Below, piece after piece: positions 1 to 39,397 of a DNA stretch of 52,584 nucleotides. The notes below the pieces were generated by a model, which worked only from the letters and a program-made list of their open reading frames with translations, made no database searches and was not told where the DNA came from. The translations under genes were made by a program, and so were the position numbers. Location of the stretch: assembly GCA_025355875.1 (NCBI GenBank), contig JANXYV010000025.1, forward strand, positions 1-52,584, given 5' to 3'. Each line of letters starts with the position of its first letter. Position 1 is the first letter of the stretch. This DNA comes from Prolixibacteraceae bacterium. Its GTDB lineage: Bacteria; Bacteroidota; Bacteroidia; Bacteroidales; Prolixibacteraceae.

Positions 1-1
1 C

Positions 2-280
2 AAAGCTGCACTTTGGATATATAAAAAACAATCACTTGGTTCAGTTAATAGCAAAGTTCATGGTTCAAAAATTGTCACTACTTTCTATTTCAGTAATGGT
101 GGAAATGGAAAAATCAAGGAATTGACTTTGTTTAACCTTAAAGCTACTTTCCCTGACAACCACATGTTGCACGATGCAATTGATGATCAATTTAAGACTG
201 ATACTTCATTAGAGGAATACGACCAGTTCCACAACCATTATAAAATCAATCATTTTTTAGAAGCACAAGGAGTAAAATAA
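2..280 (+). CDS. 3' end of an unknown gene (partial)
   Basis: The frame is open from the first bases of the window to a TAA at 278-280, giving the last 92 residues of a protein whose start lies outside. The visible part is polar and mixed charged, with several aromatic residues and a His-containing tail (HNHYKINHF). I do not recognise the family. It ends 7 bases before the ATG of the His-rich mini-lipoprotein and is on the same strand as the metal-efflux genes, so it may belong to the same metal-response unit, but this is inference from position only. Confidence 0.6.
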   Translation, partial: KAALWIYKKQSLGSVNSKVHGSKIVTTFYFSNGGNGKIKELTLFNLKATFPDNHMLHDAIDDQFKTDTSLEEYDQFHNHYKINHFLEAQGVK

Positions 281-287
281 TTCAGCA

Positions 288-461
288 ATGAGAAAGTCCA
301 TTTTAATTTCAACCATTTTTGCTATTATCCTTTTATCTTTAAGTGGATGCTTGGGGATGCATCACATGAGTCATGTTAACGTGAGAACTGCAAATAATGA
401 AATTACTAATTACGTGCAGGCTAATCATGGAACAAACAATCATTCTGGTGGTTGCCACTAA
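288..461 (+). CDS. His/Met-rich 57-aa lipoprotein, putative metal-binding
   Basis: This ORF of 57 residues has a basic start (MRKS), a hydrophobic stretch and a lipobox LSGC at residues 18-21, so the mature protein would be a lipid-anchored peptide of about 37 residues starting at Cys21. The mature part is rich in potential metal ligands: GMHHMSH just after the lipid anchor and NHSGGCH at the C-terminus. It lies 7 bases after the preceding gene and upstream of a complete Cus-type copper/silver pump. A periplasmic or surface metal scavenger or chaperone is a reasonable inference; no known family was recognised. It is followed by a strong hairpin at 518-555. Confidence 0.7.
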   Translation: MRKSILISTIFAIILLSLSGCLGMHHMSHVNVRTANNEITNYVQANHGTNNHSGGCH

Positions 462-517
462 AAGAGAACTGTTCCAGTTTACCAATCGGTAAGTTGGCTC
501 TGATTTTTTACTTATTT

Positions 518-555
518 TCGGGGGCAACTAATTTTACTGTTTTTATTGCCCCCGA
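518..555 (+). terminator. Hairpin downstream of the mini-lipoprotein gene
   Basis: Perfect 10-bp arms TCGGGGGCAA (518-527) and TTGCCCCCGA (546-555) around an 18-base loop. The tail TATTTAATAATTTTAC is AU-rich but not a pure T-run. It probably ends the lipoprotein transcript, separating it from the cus operon. Confidence 0.5.
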
Positions 556-557
556 TA

Positions 558-588
558 TTTAATAATTTTACAATTCGACCGATATTTG
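558..588 (+). promoter_or_regulatory. Possible promoter of the cus operon
   Basis: GATATTTG at 581-588 matches the Bacteroidota -7 box TAnnTTTG with one mismatch. TTTA at 558-561 lies 19 bases upstream, where the -33 TTTG box is expected, also with one mismatch. The start codon of cusA is about 100 bases downstream. Confidence 0.35.
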
Positions 589-636
589 TGGATTCTGGTC
601 AAAGAGCAAAACTCAATAATTCCCATTGCCCAAACT

Positions 637-659
637 CCCTTCCCCATTTTGGGGAAGGG
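637..659. repeat. GC-rich palindromic hairpin (REP-like) before cusA
   Basis: CCCTTCCCC (637-645) and GGGGAAGGG (651-659) form a perfect 9-bp stem with the loop ATTTT. It is followed by TTGGGGATGGGG and ends 28 bases before the cusA ATG. The composition differs from its AT-rich surroundings. From memory, similar CCCTTCCCC/GGGGAAGGG strings are scattered through many Bacteroidota genomes, which suggests an interspersed repeat rather than a gene-specific element. Confidence 0.5.
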
Positions 660-687
660 TTGGGGATGGGGCTAATACTTTTTCAAC

Positions 688-3600
688 ATGTTTAACCGAC
701 TCGTCAAATATTTTCTCGAAAATCGGCTGATTACCTTTCTGTTCCTGATCACATTTGTGGTTTTGGGATTGGTGTACATGCCGTTCAACTGGAAGTCCGA
801 ATTTTTTCCTCGCGACCCGATTGCGGTAGATGCCATTCCGGATATTGGCGAAAATCAACAGATTGTGGCCACCGAATGGATGGGCCGCTCGCCAAAAGAC
901 ATTCAGGATCAGGTGACTTATCCGCTGACAACAGCATTGCTGGGAATTCCGGGTGTTCAGACCATCCGCAGCACTTCCATGTTCGGAATGTCGTTTATCT
1001 ACATCATCTTTAAAGATAAGGTTGAATTTTACTGGAGCCGCTCCCGAATTCTTGAAAAGCTGAATTCACTGCCTTCAGGTACTTTGCCTTCCGGAGTGCA
1101 ACCCACTTTGGGACCCGATGCTACGGCGCTTGGACAAATTTTCTGGTACACGCTCGAAGGTCGCGATCCGAAAACCGGCAAACCCAACGGTGGCTGGGAT
1201 CCGCAGGAACTACGCACTATTCAGGATTTTTACGTCAAATACGGATTGACCACTGCCGAAGGTGTTTCTGAAGTGGCTTCTGTCGGCGGCTTCATCAAAG
1301 AATACCAGGTCGATCTCAATCCTGAAGCATTGAAAGCATTCAATGTTTCAACCATGGACGTGATGAATGCCGTGCGCAAAAGCAACCTCGACATTGGCGC
1401 TGAAACCATTGAGTTGAACAATGTGGAATACATTATCCGTGGTTTGGGTTATGTGAAAAATCTGGAAGATCTTGAAATATCGGTAGTTGCAGTCCGGAAT
1501 AATGTTCCTGTTCGAATCAAAGACGTGGCGAATGTGTCGTTTGGTCCGGCTACCCGTCGCGGCGGTCTTGATAAAGCTGGGTCAGAAGCTGTTGGCGCGG
1601 TAGTGGTTGCCCGTTACGGTTCCAATCCGACGGATGTAATCAACAATGTAAAGGACAAAATCAAGGAACTGGAAGCCGGGATGCCGCAAAAGACTTTGCC
1701 TGACGGAACTGTTTCGAAAGTGACCATTGTGCCGTTTTACGACCGCACCGGATTGATCAAAGAAACGATTGGAACGCTCGAATCAGCGCTGTCGCACGAA
1801 ATTCTGATCAGCATCATTGTCATTATAATTCTGGTAATGAACCTGCGGGCATCGCTTATTGTTGCCGGATTGCTGCCAATTGGCGTACTGATGACATTCA
1901 TCCTGATGCGGTTTTTCGGAATCGAAGCCAATGTGGTTGCCTTATCAGGAATCGCCATTGCCATTGGCGTGATGGTCGATATTGGAATTGTGGATGTGGA
2001 GAACATTCTCCGACACCTCGAAATGCCCGAAAACAAAGGCATCCGGGGCAAAAAACTGATGGGGGTGATCTATCAGGCAACTACTGAAGTTCGTGCGGCA
2101 GTGGTCACCTCAATTGCCACAACCATCGTCAGTTTCCTGCCTGTTTTTGCCATGCAGGCTGCCGAAGGAAAGCTCTTTCACCCGCTGGCTTTTACCAAAA
2201 CTTTCGCGCTGATTGCCGCGTTTGTTCTCGGAATTGTGGCGCTGCCAAGCTTGACTTATCTCTTTTTCAACATTCGGTTCGATACCAAAAAGATCCGCAA
2301 GATATGGAATAGCTGCCTGATTGTGGCCGGATTCACATTTGTGATCATCTGGCAAACCTGGCCGGCGCTGGCTTTGGCGGCAATCGGTATCAACAATTTG
2401 CTCGGCGACCGATGGACTCAAAACCGGAAAGAATTTCCGAACTTCATCAATATTGCAATCACGGTGCTGGTTGCAGCCTGGTACCTTACCATCGAGTGGC
2501 TTCCGCTGGGCGCGCACAACAGCGTTCTGGTGAATTACCTTTTCGTTGGTGGAATTATCGGGGCGATCCTTTTTGCCCTGATGTCGATGGTTCATTTTTA
2601 TGAAAAAATTATGCGGTGGGCGCTCGAAAACAAATGGAAATTCTTGGTTATTCCGATTGTTACCCTGATTTTCGGTGTATTGGCCTGGCAAGGTTTCGAC
2701 AGATCATTCGGATTTTTTGCTTCCGGAGCAGAAAATGCTGGCTGGAAAAGCGTGAGGCAAACAGCCATCTGGCAAACTCCTGAAAAGCTGTTTCCCGGAA
2801 CGGGCAAGGAATTTATGCCGTCATTAAACGAAGGTTCGTTCCTGCTGATGCCTACCAGTATGCCGCATTCGAGCATCGAAAAAAATCTTGATTACATCGA
2901 AACACTCGACAAGCGACTGTCTGCCATTCCTGAAGTGGAAGTAGCCGTTGGCAAATGGGGTCGCGTTAGTTCGGCACTCGATCCGGCACCGGTGCAGATG
3001 TTCGAGAATACCATCAATTACCGGCCGGAGTATATTCTGGATGAAAACGGTCAAAAACAAAGATTCAAAACTGATGGAAATGGACGGTTTATTCTTGATA
3101 ATGAAATAATTAGAAGTACGATAGAAAAGAATGGAAGGACAAATGAAATAAGTGGAAATAAAATTGAAATAAATGGAAGTGTGGTTGAAATAAATAGCAT
3201 TAAAGGTATGAAATATGATAAGAGAAACGACATATTTCATATTCTAATCAACGATAAATGGTTAGAAGTGGAAAAATTATCTTCCAGTATTTCAACTTAT
3301 TTCAACCTATTTCAACCTATTTCTAATTATCTCATTCCTGACCAAAATGGCGAATATTTCAGACAATGGCGACCACAGATCAAAAGGCCAAACGACATTT
3401 GGAACGAAATTGTGAAAGTAACCAACATTCCCGGTTTGACTTCGGCACCTAAATTACAGCCGATTGAAACACGCCTCGTGATGCTTTCGACCGGAATGCG
3501 TGCTCCAATGGGACTGAAAGTTTATGGTTCCGATCTGGACGCGATTGAAAAGGGCGGAATGCTGCTTGAACAGGCGCTGAAAGATGTGCCGTCGATCAAA

Positions 3601-4695
3601 GGTTCGTCGGTATTTTACGACCGGGCTGTTGGCGCTCCATACCTTGAAATCAAACTGAACCGCGAAGCAATGGCGCGCTATGGCATGAGTGTCAGCGATG
3701 TGCAGGAAGTTCTATCGGTGGCAGTTGGCGGCATGGCGCTTTCGTCTTCGGTTGAAGGGCGTGAACGGTTTCCGATCAGGGTTCGGTATGCCCGCGAACT
3801 GCGCGATAATCCCGACGACATCAAACGCATCCTGATTCCGGCCATGAACGGCGTTCAGGTTCCGTTGAGTGAAATTGCCGACATCGATTATACCCGTGGT
3901 GCCCAGATGATTCGCAGCGAAAATACCTTCCTGAACGGTTATGTGATTTTCGACAAAAACGAAGGCAAAGCTGAAGTGGATGTGGTGGAAGAAGCCACTA
4001 AATTTCTTCAGAAAAAAACGAGTTCAGGTTCGCTGGTTTTACCTGCCGGAGTTTCCTATAAGTTCGCAGGAAATTACGAACATCAGATGCGCGCCACCAA
4101 ACGACTGGCTATCGTCATCCCGATCAGTTTGCTCCTGATTTTGCTGTTGCTCTATTTCCAGTTTCGCACGGTCACCGCTTCGTTTATTCACTTTTCAGGC
4201 GTGTTTGTCGCTTTTGCCGGAGGTTTTATCATGCTTTGGCTTTATGGGCAGGACTGGTTTATGAACTTTTCGGTTTCAGGAGTCAACCTGCGCGACCTTT
4301 TTCAGATGCACACCATTAACCTGAGTGTGGCCGTTTGGGTTGGGTTTATTGCCCTCTTCGGAATTGCCACCAACGATGGCGTAATTATGGGAACCTACAT
4401 TCATCAAGTGTTTGAAGACCGGCATCCGGCAACCGTTCACGAAGTTCGCGAGGCTGTAGTTTCCGCCGGAATGAAACGAGTTCGTCCGGCAATGATGACT
4501 ACCGCAGTGGCTGTTATCGCGCTGCTGCCCGTTTTGTCGTCAACCGGAAAAGGTTCCGATATCATGATCCCGATGGCCATCCCCATGTTTGGCGGCATGG
4601 TCATTCAGGTCATGACCGTCTTTGTCGTCCCAATGTTTCAGTCGATGTGGCGGGAGTACACAGTGAAAAAGACAAACACAGACGAAATACGATAG
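688..4695 (+). CDS. cusA: CusA-type heavy-metal efflux RND pump (Cu/Ag), with an in-frame insert
   Basis: This is the inner-membrane proton-driven pump of a tripartite heavy-metal exporter, 1335 residues. The N-terminal helix (residues about 10-30), the RND porter regions and the multi-helix blocks near 370-600 and 1140-1330 are visible. The helix-4 signature at about residues 421-439 reads AIGVMVD followed by VEN, closest to the Cu/Ag (HME4) type rather than the DFG...DGA type of zinc/cobalt pumps. It is about 300 residues longer than E. coli CusA. Part of this is extra hydrophobic and linker sequence common in Bacteroidota homologues; part is an AT-rich block, residues about 806-882, made of phased GAA/TTC repeats (see separate entry). 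The stop codon itself lies inside a second such array. An outer-membrane channel and adaptor follow. Confidence 0.93.
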   Translation: MFNRLVKYFLENRLITFLFLITFVVLGLVYMPFNWKSEFFPRDPIAVDAIPDIGENQQIVATEWMGRSPKDIQDQVTYPLTTALLGIPGVQTIRSTSMFGMSFIYIIFKDKVEFYWSRSRILEKLNSLPSGTLPSGVQPTLGPDATALGQIFWYTLEGRDPKTGKPNGGWDPQELRTIQDFYVKYGLTTAEGVSEVASVGGFIKEYQVDLNPEALKAFNVSTMDVMNAVRKSNLDIGAETIELNNVEYIIRGLGYVKNLEDLEISVVAVRNNVPVRIKDVANVSFGPATRRGGLDKAGSEAVGAVVVARYGSNPTDVINNVKDKIKELEAGMPQKTLPDGTVSKVTIVPFYDRTGLIKETIGTLESALSHEILISIIVIIILVMNLRASLIVAGLLPIGVLMTFILMRFFGIEANVVALSGIAIAIGVMVDIGIVDVENILRHLEMPENKGIRGKKLMGVIYQATTEVRAAVVTSIATTIVSFLPVFAMQAAEGKLFHPLAFTKTFALIAAFVLGIVALPSLTYLFFNIRFDTKKIRKIWNSCLIVAGFTFVIIWQTWPALALAAIGINNLLGDRWTQNRKEFPNFINIAITVLVAAWYLTIEWLPLGAHNSVLVNYLFVGGIIGAILFALMSMVHFYEKIMRWALENKWKFLVIPIVTLIFGVLAWQGFDRSFGFFASGAENAGWKSVRQTAIWQTPEKLFPGTGKEFMPSLNEGSFLLMPTSMPHSSIEKNLDYIETLDKRLSAIPEVEVAVGKWGRVSSALDPAPVQMFENTINYRPEYILDENGQKQRFKTDGNGRFILDNEIIRSTIEKNGRTNEISGNKIEINGSVVEINSIKGMKYDKRNDIFHILINDKWLEVEKLSSSISTYFNLFQPISNYLIPDQNGEYFRQWRPQIKRPNDIWNEIVKVTNIPGLTSAPKLQPIETRLVMLSTGMRAPMGLKVYGSDLDAIEKGGMLLEQALKDVPSIKGSSVFYDRAVGAPYLEIKLNREAMARYGMSVSDVQEVLSVAVGGMALSSSVEGRERFPIRVRYARELRDNPDDIKRILIPAMNGVQVPLSEIADIDYTRGAQMIRSENTFLNGYVIFDKNEGKAEVDVVEEATKFLQKKTSSGSLVLPAGVSYKFAGNYEHQMRATKRLAIVIPISLLLILLLLYFQFRTVTASFIHFSGVFVAFAGGFIMLWLYGQDWFMNFSVSGVNLRDLFQMHTINLSVAVWVGFIALFGIATNDGVIMGTYIHQVFEDRHPATVHEVREAVVSAGMKRVRPAMMTTAVAVIALLPVLSSTGKGSDIMIPMAIPMFGGMVIQVMTVFVVPMFQSMWREYTVKKTNTDEIR
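3103..3333 (+). repeat. AT-rich in-frame insert in cusA with phased GAA and TTC arrays
   Basis: GAA triplets begin at 3103, 3113, 3124, 3134, 3145, 3155, 3166, 3176 and 3187: spacings alternate 10 and 11 exactly, i.e. a degenerate 21-bp (7-codon) tandem repeat. The first GAA is on a codon boundary, so the protein shows heptads of the form E-I-N-G-x-x-x. After about 100 bases the opposite strand motif follows as ATTTC at 3289, 3299, 3309, 3319 and ATCTC at 3329. The block therefore has GAAAT repeats on the left and ATTTC repeats on the right, an imperfect inverted arrangement. It is clearly more AT-rich than the rest of cusA. Normal cusA homology resumes at about LIPDQNG. Confidence 0.8.
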
Positions 4696-4752
4696 AAACA
4701 AAGTGGACTAAAATTGAAATAGATTGAAATATTATAGAAATACAATTGAAAT
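4684..4752 (+). repeat. Left phased GAAAT array of the four-helix-bundle cassette
   Basis: GAA-like triplets start at 4684, 4695, 4705/4706 (GGAC), 4716, 4726, 4737 and 4748, again 10-11 bases apart. The array begins inside the last codons of cusA and contains its TAG stop (4693-4695). It is the same repeat class as the left side of the insert within cusA. Its partner array, ATTTC on the same strand, lies at 5211-5276 on the other side of the small gene. Confidence 0.75.
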
Positions 4753-4806
4753 ACTATTGTAAATTTATTGGACGAATCAATCTAAAACAAAGTAATACAC
4801 TAATTT

Positions 4807-5193
4807 ATGGAAGAACAAAAGAAATATATACCAGTACAGCAATTGAAGGTTTATCAGCTTGCCAGAGAACTTTCATCAAAGGGATGGGAAATATACTGCA
4901 AGCTTAGTTTTGAGCAGAAAAAGTTGTTTGGAGATCAGTTTTTACGGGCAATTGATTCGATAGGCGCGAATATAGCCGAAGGATATGCCAGATACCATGC
5001 TTTGGATCAGGTTCGCTTTTACCATATTGCCAGGGCATCAATGAGTGAAGCGATAAACCACTGGGCTTCCTTATTGCTTGAAAGAAAAGTAATTTCTGAT
5101 ACAGATTATAATTTTCTTTTTGAGAAATATAAAGAGCTTGAAATCAAACTCAACAATTTTATTTCAACAACTCGAAACGCCTCTGAAAAATGA
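4807..5193 (+). CDS. Four helix bundle protein (S23/IVS-type family)
   Basis: A 128-residue, all-helical protein of the four-helix-bundle family (TIGR02436/Pfam 05635 type). The signature is clear: a short N-terminal part with LKVYQLAREL, then a core with DSIGANIAEGYARY at about 53-66, RFYHIARAS, and E(A/L)-rich C-terminal helices. Relatives are encoded inside intervening sequences of bacterial 23S rRNA, and a diverged relative (Avd) works with reverse transcriptase in diversity-generating retroelements; the molecular role of the stand-alone form is unknown. Here it interrupts an RND efflux operon between pump and channel. Its TGA overlaps the ATG of the next gene (ATGA, 5190-5193), and it is bracketed by phased GAAAT/ATTTC arrays. 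No reverse transcriptase or rRNA is nearby. Confidence 0.85.
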   Translation: MEEQKKYIPVQQLKVYQLARELSSKGWEIYCKLSFEQKKLFGDQFLRAIDSIGANIAEGYARYHALDQVRFYHIARASMSEAINHWASLLLERKVISDTDYNFLFEKYKELEIKLNNFISTTRNASEK

Positions 5194-6629
5194 AAACCCA
5201 CAAACGAAGTACTTCAAAATATTTCAAAATACTTCTATGTATTTCAGTTTTATTTCCATGTGTATCTGCCTATTCTCAATCCGATTCTCTAACTTATTAT
5301 CTGGAAATTGCCGCAAAAAACAATCCGTCTGTTCAGCAGAAATTCACCGAATATGAGGCCGCCCTTCAAAAAGTACCACAGGTTGGCGGTTTGCCCAATC
5401 CGGAGTTGAATGTTGGTGTATTTTTGAGCCCGATGGAACTGGTTGCCGGAAAGCAGGTTGCCGATATTCGCCTGATGCAGATGTTTCCGTGGTTTGGCCA
5501 ATTGAAAAATGCCAAAGACGAAATGAGCCTGATGGCTAAAGCAAAGTTCGAATCCTTTCGGGAAGCCAAGCTGCAGGTCTATCTTGATGTGCAGCAAAGC
5601 TGGTATGAATTGCAGAAAGTCCAACAATCGATCCTCATTTCGGAAAAGAACCTGGAGATTTTGTATTCGTTGAAACGACTTTCCACGGTGAAATTCAAGG
5701 CTGCTTCGAATGGTGGAAGCAGCTCATCCGGAAGTTCTGTTTCACGAGGAAATTCATCCTCCGCAAGCACCGCTTCCTCCGGAATGTCAGGCATGAGCGG
5801 AAATGCCGGAACTTCACCAGTTCAATCTTTACCTGTGATGCCATCCAATCCGATGAGTTCTTCCGGAGCGTCGGGATTGGCTGAGATCTACCGAATCCAA
5901 ATGGAAATCGGTGAACTGGAGAACAGTATTTCATCGCAGCAGAACCAGTTGCAAACTATTTCAGCGCGATTTAATGGTCTCCTGAACCGTAAGTCGCAAA
6001 CTCCAGTTCAATTTACAGAGAAATTAATCGCTGATTCGCTCGGTATAGTTCTGACGGCTGTTTCAGACAGTATGTTTGCGGATAGTCCGATGTTAGGGAT
6101 GTTGAAATACGAAGAACAATCGCTCGATGCGCGTCAGCAAATGGTGACTAAAATGGGATACCCGATGGTTGGCGTTGGATTGAATTATTCAGTAATAAGC
6201 AAAAATCCAATGTCGGCTTCCGAAATGAACGGAAGTGACATGATCATGCCCATGGTGACCGTTACTTTACCGATCTACCGGAAAAAATACCGGGCCATGC
6301 AGGAGGAAGTCAGGCTGCAGAAAGTCGCTACGCAGCAAGGATTTCAGGCAACAACCAATGCGTTAAGAACCGAGTATTACGAAGCCATGCAACTTTATCA
6401 GGATGCCCAGAGAAGAATGAAACTATACGACAATCAGTCGGATTTAGCCAATAAATCACTAAATATCATGATGAAAAGTTTCTCAGCTTCAGGCGCCGGA
6501 TTAAGCGATTTACTTCGGATTCGCCAGCAAACGCTCGACTATGAAACCAAAAAGATAGAAGCCATTCGTGATAACAACACATCCATTGCCTGGATCAAAC
6601 GACTGACGGCATGTTCTCAAATCCAATAA
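5190..6629 (+). CDS. cusC: TolC-family outer-membrane channel of the Cus system
   Basis: A 479-residue TolC/OEP protein with a signal peptide (about residues 1-30, cleavage near SAYSQ). It forms the outer-membrane and periplasmic duct for the CusA/CusB pump. The two repeated OEP halves are recognisable (LPNPELNVGVF... and later MQEEVRLQKV...). Between the helices of the first half, about residues 172-230, there is a Ser/Gly/Met-rich low-complexity insert with GMSGMSG and VMPSNPMSS. In TolC this place corresponds to the periplasmic tip that meets pump and adaptor, so the methionines could contact Cu(I) or Ag(I) (inference). The start overlaps the four-helix-bundle gene, and the signal-peptide codons coincide with the right ATTTC array, so the N-terminus may have been reshaped by that insertion. 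Confidence 0.85.
   Translation: MKTHKRSTSKYFKILLCISVLFPCVSAYSQSDSLTYYLEIAAKNNPSVQQKFTEYEAALQKVPQVGGLPNPELNVGVFLSPMELVAGKQVADIRLMQMFPWFGQLKNAKDEMSLMAKAKFESFREAKLQVYLDVQQSWYELQKVQQSILISEKNLEILYSLKRLSTVKFKAASNGGSSSSGSSVSRGNSSSASTASSGMSGMSGNAGTSPVQSLPVMPSNPMSSSGASGLAEIYRIQMEIGELENSISSQQNQLQTISARFNGLLNRKSQTPVQFTEKLIADSLGIVLTAVSDSMFADSPMLGMLKYEEQSLDARQQMVTKMGYPMVGVGLNYSVISKNPMSASEMNGSDMIMPMVTVTLPIYRKKYRAMQEEVRLQKVATQQGFQATTNALRTEYYEAMQLYQDAQRRMKLYDNQSDLANKSLNIMMKSFSASGAGLSDLLRIRQQTLDYETKKIEAIRDNNTSIAWIKRLTACSQIQ
5211..5276 (+). repeat. Right phased ATTTC array of the four-helix-bundle cassette
   Basis: ACTTC/ATTTC motifs begin at 5211, 5221, 5231, 5241 and 5252, with weaker copies near 5263 and 5272. 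The spacing is 10-11 bases. The array lies in the signal-peptide codons of the TolC-family gene. Relative to the GAAAT array at 4684-4752 it is in inverted orientation, mirroring the two sides of the insert inside cusA. Confidence 0.7.
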
Positions 6630-6640
6630 ATTCAATTCAC

Positions 6641-8173
6641 ATGAACAAACTATTTTCAAATCAATATGTCCGTGGCGGTTTATTCATCGCAATCGGACTT
6701 TTTCTGGGTTGGGCTGTTTTTCATTCTCCTGAAAAGGTCGGGGAAAAGGTGAAACAGACAGTGGTTGAGTCAAAATCCGAAATCTGGACCTGCTCAATGC
6801 ACCCGCAAATTCGGATGGATAAACCCGGCAAATGTCCCATTTGTGCGATGGATCTGATTCCGCTCATTTCGATTGCGGCATCACAATCTGATCCGGAAGC
6901 CATTCATCTGACCAAAGAATCTGCTCAACTGGCCAATGTGATGACTTCGGTTGTTTCGCGCCAGAATCCTGAGAAAGAGGTGCGCCTTTATGGAAAAGTG
7001 CAGGCTGATGAGCGCCTGCTGCAAAACCAGGTGGCACAAATCTCCGGGAGGGTTGAAAAACTGTTCGTGAATTTCACCGGTGAACCTATTCGCAAGGGAC
7101 AAAAGCTGGCAGATATCTATTCGCCCGAACTGGTTACCGCCCAGCAGGAATTACTCGAAGCCGCTAAAACCAAATTGACACAGCCCGAAATTTATGAGGC
7201 AGCCAAAGAAAAACTGCGACAATGGAAACTTTCAGAAGCACAGATATCGGAAATTGAAAACCCACATAACATCCAATCAAACATGGCCGTAGAGGCGACA
7301 ACTTCAGGCATTGTTACAGCTCGTCGCATTAACATGGGCGACTATGTCAGTGCCGGAACGGTGCTCTTTGAAGTTTCCGATTTATCTCGGGTGTGGGTGT
7401 TGTTCGATGCCTACGAAACCGACCTTCCGTTCCTGAAAACCGGAGACAAAATTGACTTTTCAGTTCAGGCTTTGCCGGGAACATCGTTTTCAGCAACTGT
7501 AAAATTCATCGATCCGGTGATAGATCCGGTGAACCGCGTGGCGAAAGTTCGCATCGAAATTGGCAATCCGGGGGCCAAACTGAAACCTGAAATGTTCGCT
7601 ACCGGAAACGTCAAATCGAATCTGGCTGAATACAGGGATAAGTTGGTTATTCCGGCTTCAGCAGTACTTTGGACCGGAAAACGTTCCATCGTTTACGTGA
7701 AAAAGGCAGGAGATGAACCCATTTTCAAAATACGTGAAGTTGAACTGGGACCCAAGTTAGGCGAAAGCTACGTGATTCTGACAGGTTTGACCGATGGCGA
7801 GGAAATAGTTACCCAGGGCACATTCAGTGTAGATGCAGCGGCTCAACTCGAAGGAAAACCAAGCATGATGAACCAACCCGACGCGACTCCGATTACGAAT
7901 CAAAGTCAAGCCCGGAATTCCAAATTCAAAGTTTCAGGAAATTGCGACCAATGCAAGGAACGAATCGAAATGGCTGCCAAATCGGTTTTCGGAGTAGCCT
8001 CTGCCGAATGGAATGCGGAATCCAAAATACTGAAAGTTAGGTTTGACGGCACTAAAACCAATTCTGATCAAGTTCAAATGGCGATTGCGAAAGTTGGTCA
8101 TGATACCGAAAAATTTAAGGCTTCGGAAAATGTCTACAAATCATTACCAAAGTGTTGTCTATACCGTGAATAG
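6641..8173 (+). CDS. cusB: Efflux RND periplasmic adaptor (CusB) with N-terminal HMBD and C-terminal HMA-like domain
   Basis: The periplasmic adaptor linking pump and channel; 510 residues from the ATG at 6641. An upstream in-frame ATG at 6611 would overlap the previous gene, so 6641 is preferred. A membrane anchor lies at about residues 12-28. A heavy-metal-binding domain follows at about 48-72 (WTCSMHPQIRMDKPGKCPIC, then AMDLIP). The usual hairpin, lipoyl and beta-barrel parts make up about 90-400. Unusually, a C-terminal heavy-metal-associated (HMA) fold at about 425-495 has GNCDQCKERIE (CxxC), and the last residues contain a vicinal Cys pair (KCCLYRE). Both ends can therefore hold metal, fitting delivery of Cu(I)/Ag(I) to the pump. 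Same operon as cusA and cusC. Confidence 0.88.
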   Translation: MNKLFSNQYVRGGLFIAIGLFLGWAVFHSPEKVGEKVKQTVVESKSEIWTCSMHPQIRMDKPGKCPICAMDLIPLISIAASQSDPEAIHLTKESAQLANVMTSVVSRQNPEKEVRLYGKVQADERLLQNQVAQISGRVEKLFVNFTGEPIRKGQKLADIYSPELVTAQQELLEAAKTKLTQPEIYEAAKEKLRQWKLSEAQISEIENPHNIQSNMAVEATTSGIVTARRINMGDYVSAGTVLFEVSDLSRVWVLFDAYETDLPFLKTGDKIDFSVQALPGTSFSATVKFIDPVIDPVNRVAKVRIEIGNPGAKLKPEMFATGNVKSNLAEYRDKLVIPASAVLWTGKRSIVYVKKAGDEPIFKIREVELGPKLGESYVILTGLTDGEEIVTQGTFSVDAAAQLEGKPSMMNQPDATPITNQSQARNSKFKVSGNCDQCKERIEMAAKSVFGVASAEWNAESKILKVRFDGTKTNSDQVQMAIAKVGHDTEKFKASENVYKSLPKCCLYRE

Positions 8174-8262
8174 GTCGATTGCCTTTGCAGAATTCACATA
8201 TACCTATGACATCAATTTTTTGCGTATATTTGACCACCTGAAAACCAAAATGAACAGACCGA

Positions 8263-8661
8263 GTGAACAGACTTTTTAAAAATATAACTGTATTTTCCTT
8301 GTGGCTTCCTTGTCTGGTCATCCTTGCGCATCTTTTCATTCCTCATGACCATCATTTTGAATCGACTACTTTTAAAACTGAGGCAACCTGCCATTCGCAA
8401 AATTCTGAATCACCAAAACATTCAACAGGTTTTCCCAGGCATTGCCAGGCATTCAGCGATCTGACATTTGACAAGGCACCATCAACACTGTTGGTTTCGC
8501 AACTTAATTCAAACTTTGTTCTATTTTTCCATTCCGGAATGGATTCAAACCTTCCGGAATTTACTTGTATAAAAATAGATAGAATGGATTTTAGGGAACC
8601 TATCCTGAAAATCAATTCTCAAAGATTACAGCTATTCAGGGCACCTCCGGTCCTGGTTTAA
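8263..8661 (+). CDS. Small membrane-anchored His/Cys protein of a metal-efflux operon
   Basis: A 132-residue protein read from a GTG start. A single N-terminal hydrophobic helix (about residues 8-27) is followed by IPHDHH and a Cys/His-containing stretch (CHSQNSE, HSTGF, RHCQAF), then a polar C-terminus. It resembles the small HDHH-containing proteins (possibly DUF6769) that precede CzcA/CusA-type pumps in Bacteroidota. It lies 75 bases upstream of the pump-channel fusion gene, so a periplasmic metal-binding accessory role is likely but unproven. The GTG start is chosen because no ATG in this frame precedes the hydrophobic helix; the frame is otherwise well supported. Confidence 0.65.
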   Translation: MNRLFKNITVFSLWLPCLVILAHLFIPHDHHFESTTFKTEATCHSQNSESPKHSTGFPRHCQAFSDLTFDKAPSTLLVSQLNSNFVLFFHSGMDSNLPEFTCIKIDRMDFREPILKINSQRLQLFRAPPVLV

Positions 8662-8736
8662 ATTCCCAGTTCTCCAAATTCGGGAAAATCCAAATTTCTT
8701 ACATTTCTATTTCTGCAACTATCAAAAAAATCCAAA

Positions 8737-11700
8737 ATGATAGAACGGATCATTCATTTTTCTATTAAGAATAAATTCATCGTTGGACTCTTTGTAATCG
8801 CCTTGATTGGCTGGGGAAGCTTCTCACTGACCAGGTTACCCATCGATGCCATTCCTGATATTACTAACAATCAGGTTCAAATTATTTCGCTGGCGCCTTC
8901 CCTGGCAACCCAGGAGGTCGAAAGTATTATTACTGCTCCGATTGAAGTGGCAGTGGCCAATATTCCGGATATCATTGAACTTCGCTCCATTTCCCGTCTG
9001 GGATTGTCGGTTATCACGGTCGTTTTTAAGGATGAAGTCGATCTTTACTGGGCTCGTCAGCAATTGAACGAGCGGCTGAAAGAAGCCGAAGACGCCATTC
9101 CGACAGGATTGGCAAAGATTGAACTTGCACCAATCTCATCCGGATTAGGCGAAATTTATCAGTATCGGCTGGCCGTAGATAAAGGTCTGGAAAAGAAATA
9201 TACGCCGATGGAACTACGTACGCTTCAGGATTGGGTCGTTCGCCGTGAGATGCTTGGAACTATCGGTGTTGCCGATATCAACAGTTACGGCGGATTCATT
9301 AAGCAGTATGAAATTGCCGTAAATCCTGAACGCTTGCGTGGAATGAATCTTTCGCTCAACGATATTTTTCAGGCTCTGGAGCGGAACAACGAAAACACCG
9401 GAAGCGCCTACATCGACAAAAAGCCAACCGCTTATTTCATACGGGGAATCGGAATGGTCAAAACGCCGGAAGATATTGAACGAATCGTGGTAAAGTCAAA
9501 TGCCTCGGGTATTCCGGTTTTGATTCGGGATGTCGCCACCGTTCAGTTTGGTTCTGCAACGCGCTACGGAGCATTTGTGGTGGATACTACCGAAGCCGTC
9601 GGTGGTGTGGTAATGATGCTGAAAGGGGCAAATGCGCATAAAGTGATCGAAAGTGTCAAAACGCGGATCGAATCCATTCAGAAATCGTTGCCGAAAGGGG
9701 TTCGGATCGAACCGTTCCTGAACCGCTCTGAACTGGTTGGCCGTGCCATCGAAACAGTTTCGAAAAACCTGATTGAAGGCGCGCTGATCGTGGTTTTTAT
9801 GCTGGTTTTGCTCCTGGGAAACTTTCGCGCCGGATTGGTAGTGGCTTCAGTTATTCCTCTCTCCATGCTTTTTGCAATTTCCCTGATGAATATTTTTAGT
9901 GTTTCAGGGAACCTGATGAGTCTTGGAGCCATTGATTTTGGGCTGATTGTCGACGGAGCAGTAATTATCGTTGAAAGTGTGGTGCATCGGATATCTTCCA
10001 GTAAACATCATCATCCGGGAGTAACAAAGCTTTCGCAGCAACAAATGGACGAGAATGTTTTCGATTCGGCCAAACGGATGATGAGTTCGGCCACTTTCGG
10101 GCAAGTCATTATCCTGATTGTTTATTTGCCCATCATGGCTTTGATTGGCATCGAAGGCCGGATGTTTCGTCCGATGGCAGAGGTTGTCAGTTTTGCCTTG
10201 CTGGGAGCTGCAATCCTTTCGCTGACTTACGTTCCGATGGCTTCGGCCTTGTTCCTGAGTAAAAAGACCGAACACCGGCGCAATTTTTCGGACTGCCTGA
10301 TGGAAGGATTTCACAGGGCTTTTAATCCTATGATTGCATTTGCACTGCGAAGCAAAATACTGGTTTCTGCCTCAGCCGTATTGTTGTTTTTCGCCAGTCT
10401 TTTTCTTTTTTCCAGGCTTGGCGGAGAATTTATTCCCCAGCTCGAAGAAGGCGACCTGGCAGCTGGAGTCATGACTTTGCAGGGTGGATCACTGACCAAT
10501 ACCATTGAAAAAGTGGAAATGGCCAATAAAATCCTGCTCGAAAATTTTCCTGAAATTAAACATGCTGTATGTAAAATCGGGGCCGGTGAAATTCCGACCG
10601 ATCCGACTCCCATGGAAACCGGAGATTACATCATTACCCTAAAGGATAAAAGCGAGTGGACAAGCGCTAAAACCCGCGAAGAGCTGGTCGAAAAAATGCA
10701 GGAAAAGCTGGTGGTTTTGGCCGGTGTCAAATTTGAGTTTCAACAGCCGATACAAATGCGATTCAATGAATTTATGTCGGGTTCAAAACAGGACATCGCC
10801 GTTAAAATATTTGGAGACGACCTGAATACTCTCGCTGAAAAAGCCGTCGATGTTGAGAAAATTATCAGGAATATCGAAGGTGTGACAGAAATTAATGTAG
10901 AGAAAGTGACCGGGCTTGCCCAGGTGCAGGTTGAATACAATCGCGACAGGCTGGCACAATACGGCCTCTCGGTGGATAATGTGAACCGGGTACTGCGGGC
11001 TGCTTTTGCCGGAAGTCAGGCTGGCGTAGTGTTTGATGAAGAAAAACGTTTCGGTCTGGTTGTTCGCCTCGACCGGGATTACCGTCAAAGCCTCGATGAT
11101 GTAAAAAATCTTTCGGTATCGCTTCCCGGAGGAGGGCAAATCCCATTTGATATGGTGGCTGACATCCAAATCAAATCTGGTCCGGCGCAAGTTTCGCGCG
11201 AAGACACGAAACGTCGGATTACCGTTGGATTTAATGTCCGTAACCGCGATATTCAGAGCGTCATTTCGGAAGTATCCCAACGAATCGACCGGCAGGTCAA
11301 ACTTCCAACGGGTTATTATGTATCGTATGGCGGTCAGTTTCAAAACCTCGAAGCAGCCAAAGCGAGGCTGGCTATTGCCGTTCCCGTTGCTTTGCTCATG
11401 ATTTTTGTACTACTTTATTTCACTTTTCATTCTGTTTCGCAAACCTTTCTGATCTTTTCAGCGGTGCCTATGTCGGCCATTGGCGGCGTTTTCGCATTGT
11501 GGATGCGTGGTATGAATTTTTCGATTTCCGCTGGAGTGGGATTTATTGCCTTGTTTGGTGTGGCGGTTCTGAATGGAATCGTTTTAATCGCCGAATTTAA
11601 CCGGCTAGAAAAGGAAGGGTTGAGTGATATTACCGAGCGTGTGCTCAAAGGACTGCACACCCGTTTGAGGCCGGTAATCATGACGGCTGCGGTTGCTTCG

Positions 11701-16556: not shown

Positions 16557-18660
<2,104 letters not shown>

Positions 18661-39266: not shown

Positions 39267-39283
39267 TACTTTTTGTAGGGTGT

Positions 39284-39378
39284 CCGTTGGCTAAAGCCAA
39301 CGGCAAAGGATATCGCATTGAATGAGAGCTGATGTTGATCGAAGCATTTTATCCTTTGCCGTCACATTTATGTGACGG
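39284..39378. repeat. REP-like pair in inverted orientation (BIME-like)
   Basis: Two 20-bp perfect hairpins, CCGTTGGCTAAAGCCAACGG (39284-39303) and CCGTCACATTTATGTGACGG (39359-39378), each have a 4-base loop. Each carries the same 9-base tail pointing inward, CAAAGGATA (39304-39312) and its complement TATCCTTTG (39350-39358). The CGG ends extend the outer inverted repeat to 12 bp. The whole is a 95-bp compound palindrome. No REP transposase (RAYT) gene is in the window. Confidence 0.75.
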
Positions 39379-39397
39379 AGGTGAGAATTTTAATGCT

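Follow-up and report, generated by a model that had tools for sequence, protein, structure and literature searches.

A small gene of the PF05635 family (hereafter the IVP gene) lies between two inverted arrays of short, phased units in a heavy-metal efflux operon of a Prolixibacteraceae bacterium. The window, by which we mean the whole 52,584-nucleotide stretch of DNA analysed here (contig C115 of a genome that is assembled into 230 contigs and totals 5.18 Mb), probably holds in this gene and its arrays one member of a widespread module, which comprises an IVP gene and two inverted arrays of a cognate unit with a period of 7, 8 or 10–11 nt and is organised like REPIN-RAYT systems. Our computations show that unit similarity follows protein similarity, that gene-less pairs of arrays of the same unit are dispersed and that the sites occupied differ between close relatives.

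The IVP gene (4807..5193, + strand) encodes a 128 aa protein that matches PF05635 (23S_rRNA_IVP, four-helix-bundle, E 7e-23) and TIGR02436, with 2RLD and 2GSC as solved relatives. It is located between a CusA/CzcA-family RND pump gene (688..4695, + strand; PF00873, TIGR00914) and an outer-membrane efflux channel gene of the CusC-like type (5190..6629, + strand; PF02321), all three being on one strand, so that it splits a pump–channel pair as the initial annotation proposed. The left array (4684..4752, + strand, defined by word positions and resampling) consists of units that are mostly 10–11 nt apart. Seven GAAAT words had been listed here, of which five are exact (4684, 4716, 4726, 4737 and 4748), while 4695 reads GAAAC and 4705/4706 reads GGACT/GACTA. 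The right array (5211..5256, + strand, defined in the same way) contains every word that had been listed, ATTTC at 5221, 5241 and 5252 and ACTTC at 5211 and 5231, again with a spacing of 10–11 nt. The stop codon of cusA falls within the left array, and the right array lies within the opening codons of the channel gene, which are signal-peptide-like by reading only. In positions 5190–5279 of the window and at L012, L026 and L027, the right array likewise appears by reading to encode hydrophobic residues in a signal-peptide-like start of the channel protein.

These phased arrays are confirmed as an observation. Among non-homopolymer 5-mers in the 52.6-kb window, only GAAAT/AAATA and ATTTC/TATTT form a phased chain of four, and when the local flanks were resampled 5000 times under a first-order Markov model, the observed chain was never reached on either side (the right side being scored as A[TC]TTC). 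A phased GAAAT triple occurs six times in the whole 5.18-Mb genome, five of these in the cus operon, compared with a single match for the reversed control pattern. Together with the displaced controls and the plasmid and viral controls described below, the resampling rules out chance or low complexity as the source of the arrays. No Rfam family matched positions 1–9000 of the window at the gathering score.

The same pair of words, in the same orientation as around the gene, recurs about 1.5 kb upstream in an in-frame insert within cusA (3054..3330, + strand, delimited by word positions and alignment of relatives), where phased GAAAT words (3103–3214) are followed by ATTTC words (3289–3323) with no PF05635 gene within. 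This insert measures 277 nt, compared with 103 nt in the same-genus relative G033, which lacks the IVP gene at the junction of cusA and the channel gene. Alignment of the window to the G033 ortholog (L180) covers 1651–3053 (84% identity), 3331–4655 (87%) and 5283–6509 (73%); it stops at 4655 and restarts at 5283, leaving a junction insert (4656..5282, + strand) that is unalignable to this gene-less ortholog. The 1.3 kb that separate the inserts share 87% identity with G033 and 72–76% with the gene-bearing loci L016 and L044 from other taxa. Since this native stretch separates the unaligned parts, there are two separate local inserts, and a single foreign block bearing cusA, its loop and the gene is ruled out. 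The ends of the inserts are not sharp, as the alignment to the gene-less relative stops and restarts within coding sequence.

Comparison of CusA orthologs more widely gave a consistent picture. CusA loops were read by anchor alignment (L027, L059 and L066, which have the gene, and L194, which does not, were dropped because anchors were missing), and the group without the gene was defined as orthologs whose junction (at most 303 nt) cannot fit a PF05635 gene. The loop is 35 aa long in 27 of these 28 orthologs and none of the 28 carries arrays; in the single exception the loop is 21 aa and a PF05635 gene lies approximately 1.7 kb downstream of cusA. Two-sided arrays were observed in the CusA loop in 10 of the 26 orthologs with the gene at the junction and in 0 of the 28 without (p 2.2e-4, a value that overstates independence because the two groups differ in taxonomy); the within-genus comparison with G033 is the stronger evidence. 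The comparison with empty sites that the initial annotation called for thus found gene and arrays lacking together in sister genomes, which, with their joint recurrence at unrelated sites, bears out the proposal that they form one cassette. The view of the cusA insert as its gene-less counterpart is also supported.

Within array-bearing CusA loops two units can span 21 nt, which equals seven codons, and GAAAT/ATTTC spellings are favoured beyond amino-acid need. At 11 loci, word-forming codon pairs were used more in the loops than in the rest of CusA for G/R-N (44/54 versus 10/23), E-I (46/49 versus 29/44), I-S (19/27 versus 4/27) and Y/N/D/H-F (21/33 versus 12/56), these counts being partly dependent on account of expansions inside the loops. 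Taken as a whole, neither glutamate nor phenylalanine codons are used differently in the loops (p 0.76 and 0.9), and a shift is seen only in the word-forming pairs, in N, R and I codons and, to a weak degree, in G codons.

To assess how far the association extends, we analysed a chromosomal sample in which the 80 best of 229 window-protein relatives in named genomes were joined by 29 loci from relatives and 60 more stretches. GAAAT chains of at least three words were present in the left flank at 17/80 loci and ATTTC chains in the right flank at 29/80, compared with 4/80 and 0/80 in the opposite orientation and 14, 9, 11 and 12 of 280 displaced controls. At least two words on both sides were found at 30/80 loci (20 in cus operons and 10 elsewhere) and at 0/280 displaced controls. 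Using a motif-free measure, inverted sharing of 7-mers between the flanks exceeded z>4 at 24/113 loci versus 0/354 controls, and direct-orientation sharing did so at 14/113 versus 12/354 (L003, L006, L009 and loci with flanks shorter than 100 nt were left out of the inverted test). Periodicity, scored for 174 of 186 genes, reached z>4 in 57/174 left and 75/174 right flanks, compared with 14/335 and 5/335 displaced controls; both flanks were periodic at 31 loci (2/335 in controls), and in 29 of these 31 the period or its double agrees between the sides. In a plasmid sample of 15 of 35 listed places (from Cyanobacteria, Bacteroidota, Spirochaetota and Chloroflexota) together with three viral-contig loci, inverted sharing at z>=3 was seen in 16/18 versus 5/70 controls. 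Many of these are clean heptamer arrays, as at L313, where AATTCGT repeats precede the gene and ATTACGA repeats follow it. The two misses are L306 and L314, the latter having repeats on both sides that are not inverted. Gene and arrays therefore co-occur far above controls, with arms that share period and unit, and arrays, whose enrichment in the flanks had been suggested as a check, recur beside relatives in other phyla and at unrelated positions.

The GAAAT/ATTTC words themselves, which had been expected to mark the flanks of the family, characterise mainly one subfamily; other subfamilies have other units with periods of 7 or 8 nt, which excludes GAAAT as a signature of all PF05635 genes. 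This is evident in the genome of the window, which has nine PF05635 matches, eight of them above the curated cut-off. By reading, its PF05635 loci have inverted short arrays whose unit differs at nearly every locus (for example TTGACAA, CCCGAA, GGACTGA, AAAAGAT, ATTCAAG and GTCATT), and a genome-wide repeat unlinked to the protein is rejected on the same grounds. The best left and right periods at the six loci tested in this genome (7/7, 7/7, 8/8, 7/14, 14/7 and 11/10) agree in 6/6. Across loci, flank similarity rises with protein identity, from approximately 0.06 below 40% to 0.13 (40–50%), 0.21 (50–60%) and 0.29 (60–80%). After removal of pairs with homologous neighbours, the mean for pairs of at least 45% identity (n=2240, pairs that share loci and hence are not independent) was 0.161 versus 0.093 when permuted, with a maximum of 0.126 in 2000 permutations. 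L019 carries GATAT/ATATC (with GATAC variants) both round the gene and in its own CusA loop, and L052 has GAGAT/GAGAC round the gene and a CusA loop without arrays. The array unit thus tends to be particular to the protein subfamily.

Pairs of arrays without a gene are most apparent for the GTCATT unit. In the genome of the window the insert in cusA is the only gene-less pair of the GAAAT class, and the phased GTCATT triple gives 34 matches and its reversed pattern none. These include 24 gene-less places (L217 and L218 being one place), of which 23 were parsed, and 17 of the 23 are two-armed, all in the arrangement GTCATT..AATGAC. The gene-less GTCATT places L215–L338 look asymmetric, in that 14-nt spacings with a conserved spacer resembling TGCTTCAC are frequent in one arm, and the other is mostly spaced at 10–11 nt. 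GTCATT arrays occur in 26 of the 61 genomes examined and the reversed pattern in none. They are present in 15/15 genomes with a GTCATT-class protein that reaches 46% identity or more, versus 11/46 others (a line set after the list was inspected), in 17/19 versus 9/42 with an alternative cut at E 1e-20 and, outside the genus, in 4/4 cognate genomes versus 1/34 (p ~7e-5, calculated by hand). GTCATT-class genes are broken in several genomes, by stops in G001, G037 and G048 and by a split in G000, which would fit arrays outliving their gene.

Close relatives differ in what occupies a given site. Between leuC and leuD in 21 genomes of the genus, as judged by eye, six have one PF05635 subfamily with ATTCAAG-type arrays, two have another PF05635 subfamily with other arrays and 13 have neither, often having other palindromes instead. 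Upstream of a 6-phosphogluconate dehydrogenase gene (named by reading), 20 genomes showed, again by eye, four GTCATT pairs (one with an ACATAG-type tail), four ACATAG pairs, seven other palindromes, one case with nothing and four with a different upstream context. The same junction therefore holds different element families or none among sister genomes. ACATAG..CTATGT is a second dispersed pair, seen at the same junctions in other genomes of the genus (L182, L184, L188, L189, L266, L269, L281 and L282), and some sister-genome junctions are filled by CCCTGAAAGGG-type palindromes with CCGGTG..CACCGG-like parts (L180, L181, L195, L199, L270 and L271). The window has more short palindromes at 16557–16617 and 39283–39379, which resemble kinds found at other junctions of the genus.

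The location of the elements bears on an alternative that we regard as unlikely, in which the IVP protein is a sequence-specific regulator, the arrays are its DNA or mRNA operators and the gene-less pairs its regulon, with nothing mobile. The 23 gene-less places follow gene ends, with 18 between co-directional genes, five between convergent genes and none between divergent genes or inside genes (crude open reading frame calls). By the same kind of calls the PF05635 gene is on the strand of both neighbours in 131/161 cases versus 30/87 control triples (25 genes close to a contig end or distant from the adjacent genes being left out). Both observations would suit regulation, as would a mean unit spacing of approximately 10.5 nt, which places units on one face of B-DNA, and the keeping of words in CusA loops beyond the needs of the amino acids. 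Turnover is harder to reconcile with a regulon, since sister genomes vary in the element family that a given junction carries, or have no element there, and relatives of the gene occupy different operons and phyla. A regulator would hardly need inverted arrays within coding sequence, and among the few host operons that were read, with no dedicated test, no shared theme was noticed.

The spacing and pairing of the arms also speak to an RNA-processed stem-loop, in which the arms would pair in the transcript and RNase III would free the gene-bearing loop, as in 23S rRNA intervening sequences. This reading, which was put forward by the initial annotation, draws on a protein family that is common to intervening-sequence proteins (available text of PMC4990558). 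For both segments of the window the RNA has a better predicted fold than shuffled sequence (z -4.2 and -4.15), with a pairing of the arms that is interrupted by many loops. At 37 GAAAT-class loci the two arms of a locus match each other better than the arms of other loci (29.4 versus 21.9, p 2e-4), an excess that relatedness can cause. In 17 gene-less GTCATT elements of one genome, however, the arms of an element are less alike than those of different loci (14.9 versus 17.7), so the unit alone is kept and not a base-paired stem; as a conserved feature the stem is not supported, these elements having no own-arm excess, and excision of a stem from RNA is not upheld, the arms of gene-less elements matching in unit only. 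Spacings between neighbouring GAAAT words are 10 nt (122 cases) or 11 nt (121) and hardly ever 9 nt (two) or 12 nt (three), which is near the turn of B-DNA and farther from that of an RNA helix; left arms also peak at 14, 16, 25 and 27 nt. We relied on these pair counts because a spectral fit of the GAAAT spacing, at 9.75, is probably influenced by long perfect 10-nt arrays. Excision is not needed for the in-frame insert in CusA, nor for arms of which one contributes a stop codon and the other begins the coding sequence of the following gene. The stem-loop is thus improbable, and from the patterns in the sequences we read the arrays as putative recognition sites rather than as a stem.

Several results weigh against the proposed module of gene and cognate arrays. 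In the genome of the window only L001 and L003 (2/6 loci) are periodic at z>4 on both sides and only 1/6 loci tested passes the inverted test at z>4. More widely, 73/174 genes are periodic on neither side, where arrays are either absent or decayed and missed by the test. Many cus loci are orthologous and hence not independent, 16/26 CusA loops of orthologs with the gene have no two-sided arrays, and no phased GAAAT triple is present in G030, the genome among the 61 whose homolog is closest (48% identity); by eye, GAAAC/GAAAT units form an array in the left flank of this homolog and the right flank contains ATTTC words. Arrays are also found without the expected gene. G006, G009, G010, G011 and G032 are rich in GTCATT (35, 50, 50, 76 and 71 matches) without a close cognate (the best match to the GTCATT-class protein in G032 is 39%), G041 lacks a match to the window protein and has 33 GAAAT matches, which fall at approximately 11 places, and G024 has 13 GAAAT matches without any PF05635 gene; the content of G041 and G024 argues against strict dependence of arrays on the gene. 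ATTTC arrays with a 10-bp period are seen at L261–L264 in G024. Neither a target-site duplication nor an excision product was noticed, in the course of work that included no systematic search for them, and profile searches detected no known catalytic domain in the window protein. When the remaining gene junctions of these loci served as a more stringent control, 21/167 were periodic, which shows that arrays are frequent at other places in the genomes as well. At loci that do not belong to the GAAAT class, the similarity of the two flanks in direct orientation is raised too (18.8 versus 12.8 and 23.1 versus 13.6).

The periodicity of other junctions in the same loci, together with the arrays in a genome without PF05635 and the self-similarity of some flanks in both orientations, would be expected if the arrays were ordinary slippage-prone simple repeats that gather at operon junctions, the gene being there by chance. 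We consider this very improbable, given the fixed orientation of the arrays, the agreement of both arms in period, a unit similarity that follows that of the protein, and a plasmid and viral sample that differs sharply from its controls. The module remains the reading that we prefer.

The window protein is matched only by PF05635 and four-helix-bundle models, and PF05635/TIGR02436 proteins are present in 51 of the 61 genomes; we know of no established function for either family. A ring protein that reads a row of equal units, one per subunit, would recall the RNA-binding ring protein TRAP. The solved relatives 2RLD and 2GSC (XCC0516, from X. campestris) have five chains each, and the Xanthomonas IVP structure is described as a toroidal homopentamer (available text of PMC4990558). 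We regard the IVP protein as a probable pentameric nucleic-acid-binding protein. PF05635 is also said to resemble Avd of diversity-generating retroelements in sequence and structure (available text of PMC10053308). Two contigs of the genome of the window (L006 and L009) each have part of a PF05635 gene near an end, beside sequence starting TGGACAAAAAGAATGG that is probably an insertion sequence, and look like halves of one GTCATT-class gene split by this element. On plasmids, the PF05635 gene is found among defence-type genes at L310, L314, L315 and L316, the contexts being cas2/cas1, csx2/cas1, helicase/N-6 methylase and a position beside a HEPN-domain gene.

In the mechanism that we propose, the IVP protein, a pentamer in two solved relatives, would bind the units of both arms and would bind gene-less pairs in trans. 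The module and the gene-less pairs would be spread by another, probably host, enzyme, with the IVP protein acting as a specificity factor only, in an organisation comparable to that of RAYT with REPINs. In the window, a native operon would have received one module at the junction of cusA with the channel gene and one gene-less pair, in frame, in its CusA loop. Both binding and spreading are what we infer from the distribution of arrays and genes. We know of no partner for the phased and heptamer arrays of many bacteria, and it is conceivable, if rather doubtful, that a large class of bacterial short-repeat elements has its missing partners in IVP proteins. Each subfamily would then read its own unit, one per ring subunit, and direct the copying of inverted pairs, whether or not these include the gene, to the ends of genes in operons and even to positions within reading frames. 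On this view the phased arrays of Bacteroidota would be of one kind with the heptamers found in cyanobacteria, Xanthomonas and Beggiatoaceae, and 23S rRNA intervening sequences would be its rRNA-borne branch.

The link between gene and arrays gives the protein a testable role, that of a repeat-binding protein with sequence specificity, and gives the repeat family a trans-acting gene. It could account for repeat differences between genomes, for their location at gene ends and for the origin of the rRNA intervening-sequence proteins. If the arrays spread without a known transposase, this would be a new way for short DNA to multiply. The CusA loop shows such arrays in the course of turning into protein sequence.

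Each of the known systems that we considered shares part of this arrangement. In-frame palindromic inserts in protein-coding genes, similar to the insert in CusA, are known as Rickettsia palindromic elements, for which we are aware of neither a partner protein gene nor phased arrays. Cyanobacterial short tandemly repeated repetitive sequences (STRRs) are further heptamer repeats. The 23S rRNA intervening sequences of Coxiella and Leptospira, which contain an S23p/IVP open reading frame and have been called a selfish element, have the same protein family and likewise flank its gene with inverted repeats, inside a host gene that is transcribed, otherwise unrelated and still functional; they differ in lying inside 23S rRNA, with a 28-bp near-complementary stem that RNase III cuts in vitro (available text of PMC4990558). 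In the present case protein-coding operons are the hosts, the arms are arrays of short units and gene-less copies are dispersed; the window gene lies between cusA and the channel gene rather than in a 23S rRNA gene, and has no near-perfect terminal stem.

Heptamers in other bacteria resemble the units of the module. GGGAATC in Xanthomonas and GGGGA(C/T)T in Nostoc (available text of PMC4692102) and TAACTGA in Beggiatoaceae and others (available text of PMC4679880) are 7-nt units found mostly between aligned genes, and 70 and 75 convergent inverted heptamer pairs have been described in Xanthomonas (PMC4692102). X. campestris is also the source of the solved IVP protein XCC0516. Unlike heptamers and STRRs, the units in the window are spaced at 10–11 nt, though other members of the module do have 7. 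In the two papers on heptamers the repeats are interpreted as G-quadruplex or possible regulatory elements, and a word search of the available text of both returned no mention of S23 or four-helix (PMC4692102, PMC4679880). Among the matches listed in searches of an open-access library, none links the PF05635 family to such arrays by title or abstract.

The closest parallel in organisation is REPIN-RAYT, in which a gene lies beside group-specific inverted repeats and many gene-less inverted pairs are dispersed in extragenic positions (available text of PMC3116915). The same features were found here, with a repeat of the same group flanking the gene and dispersed extragenic inverted pairs in the GTCATT class. 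RAYT is a Y1 (HUH) tyrosine transposase (PMC3116915), a domain that IVP proteins lack, and the arms here are arrays of 7–11-nt units instead of single REPs. Intervening sequences thus share the protein, REPIN-RAYT the organisation and heptamers the units, each failing a defining feature or being unlinked to the others in the literature covered. Because no known family considered fits, we would rate the kind itself as new, with an organisation that is not without parallel in REPIN-RAYT.

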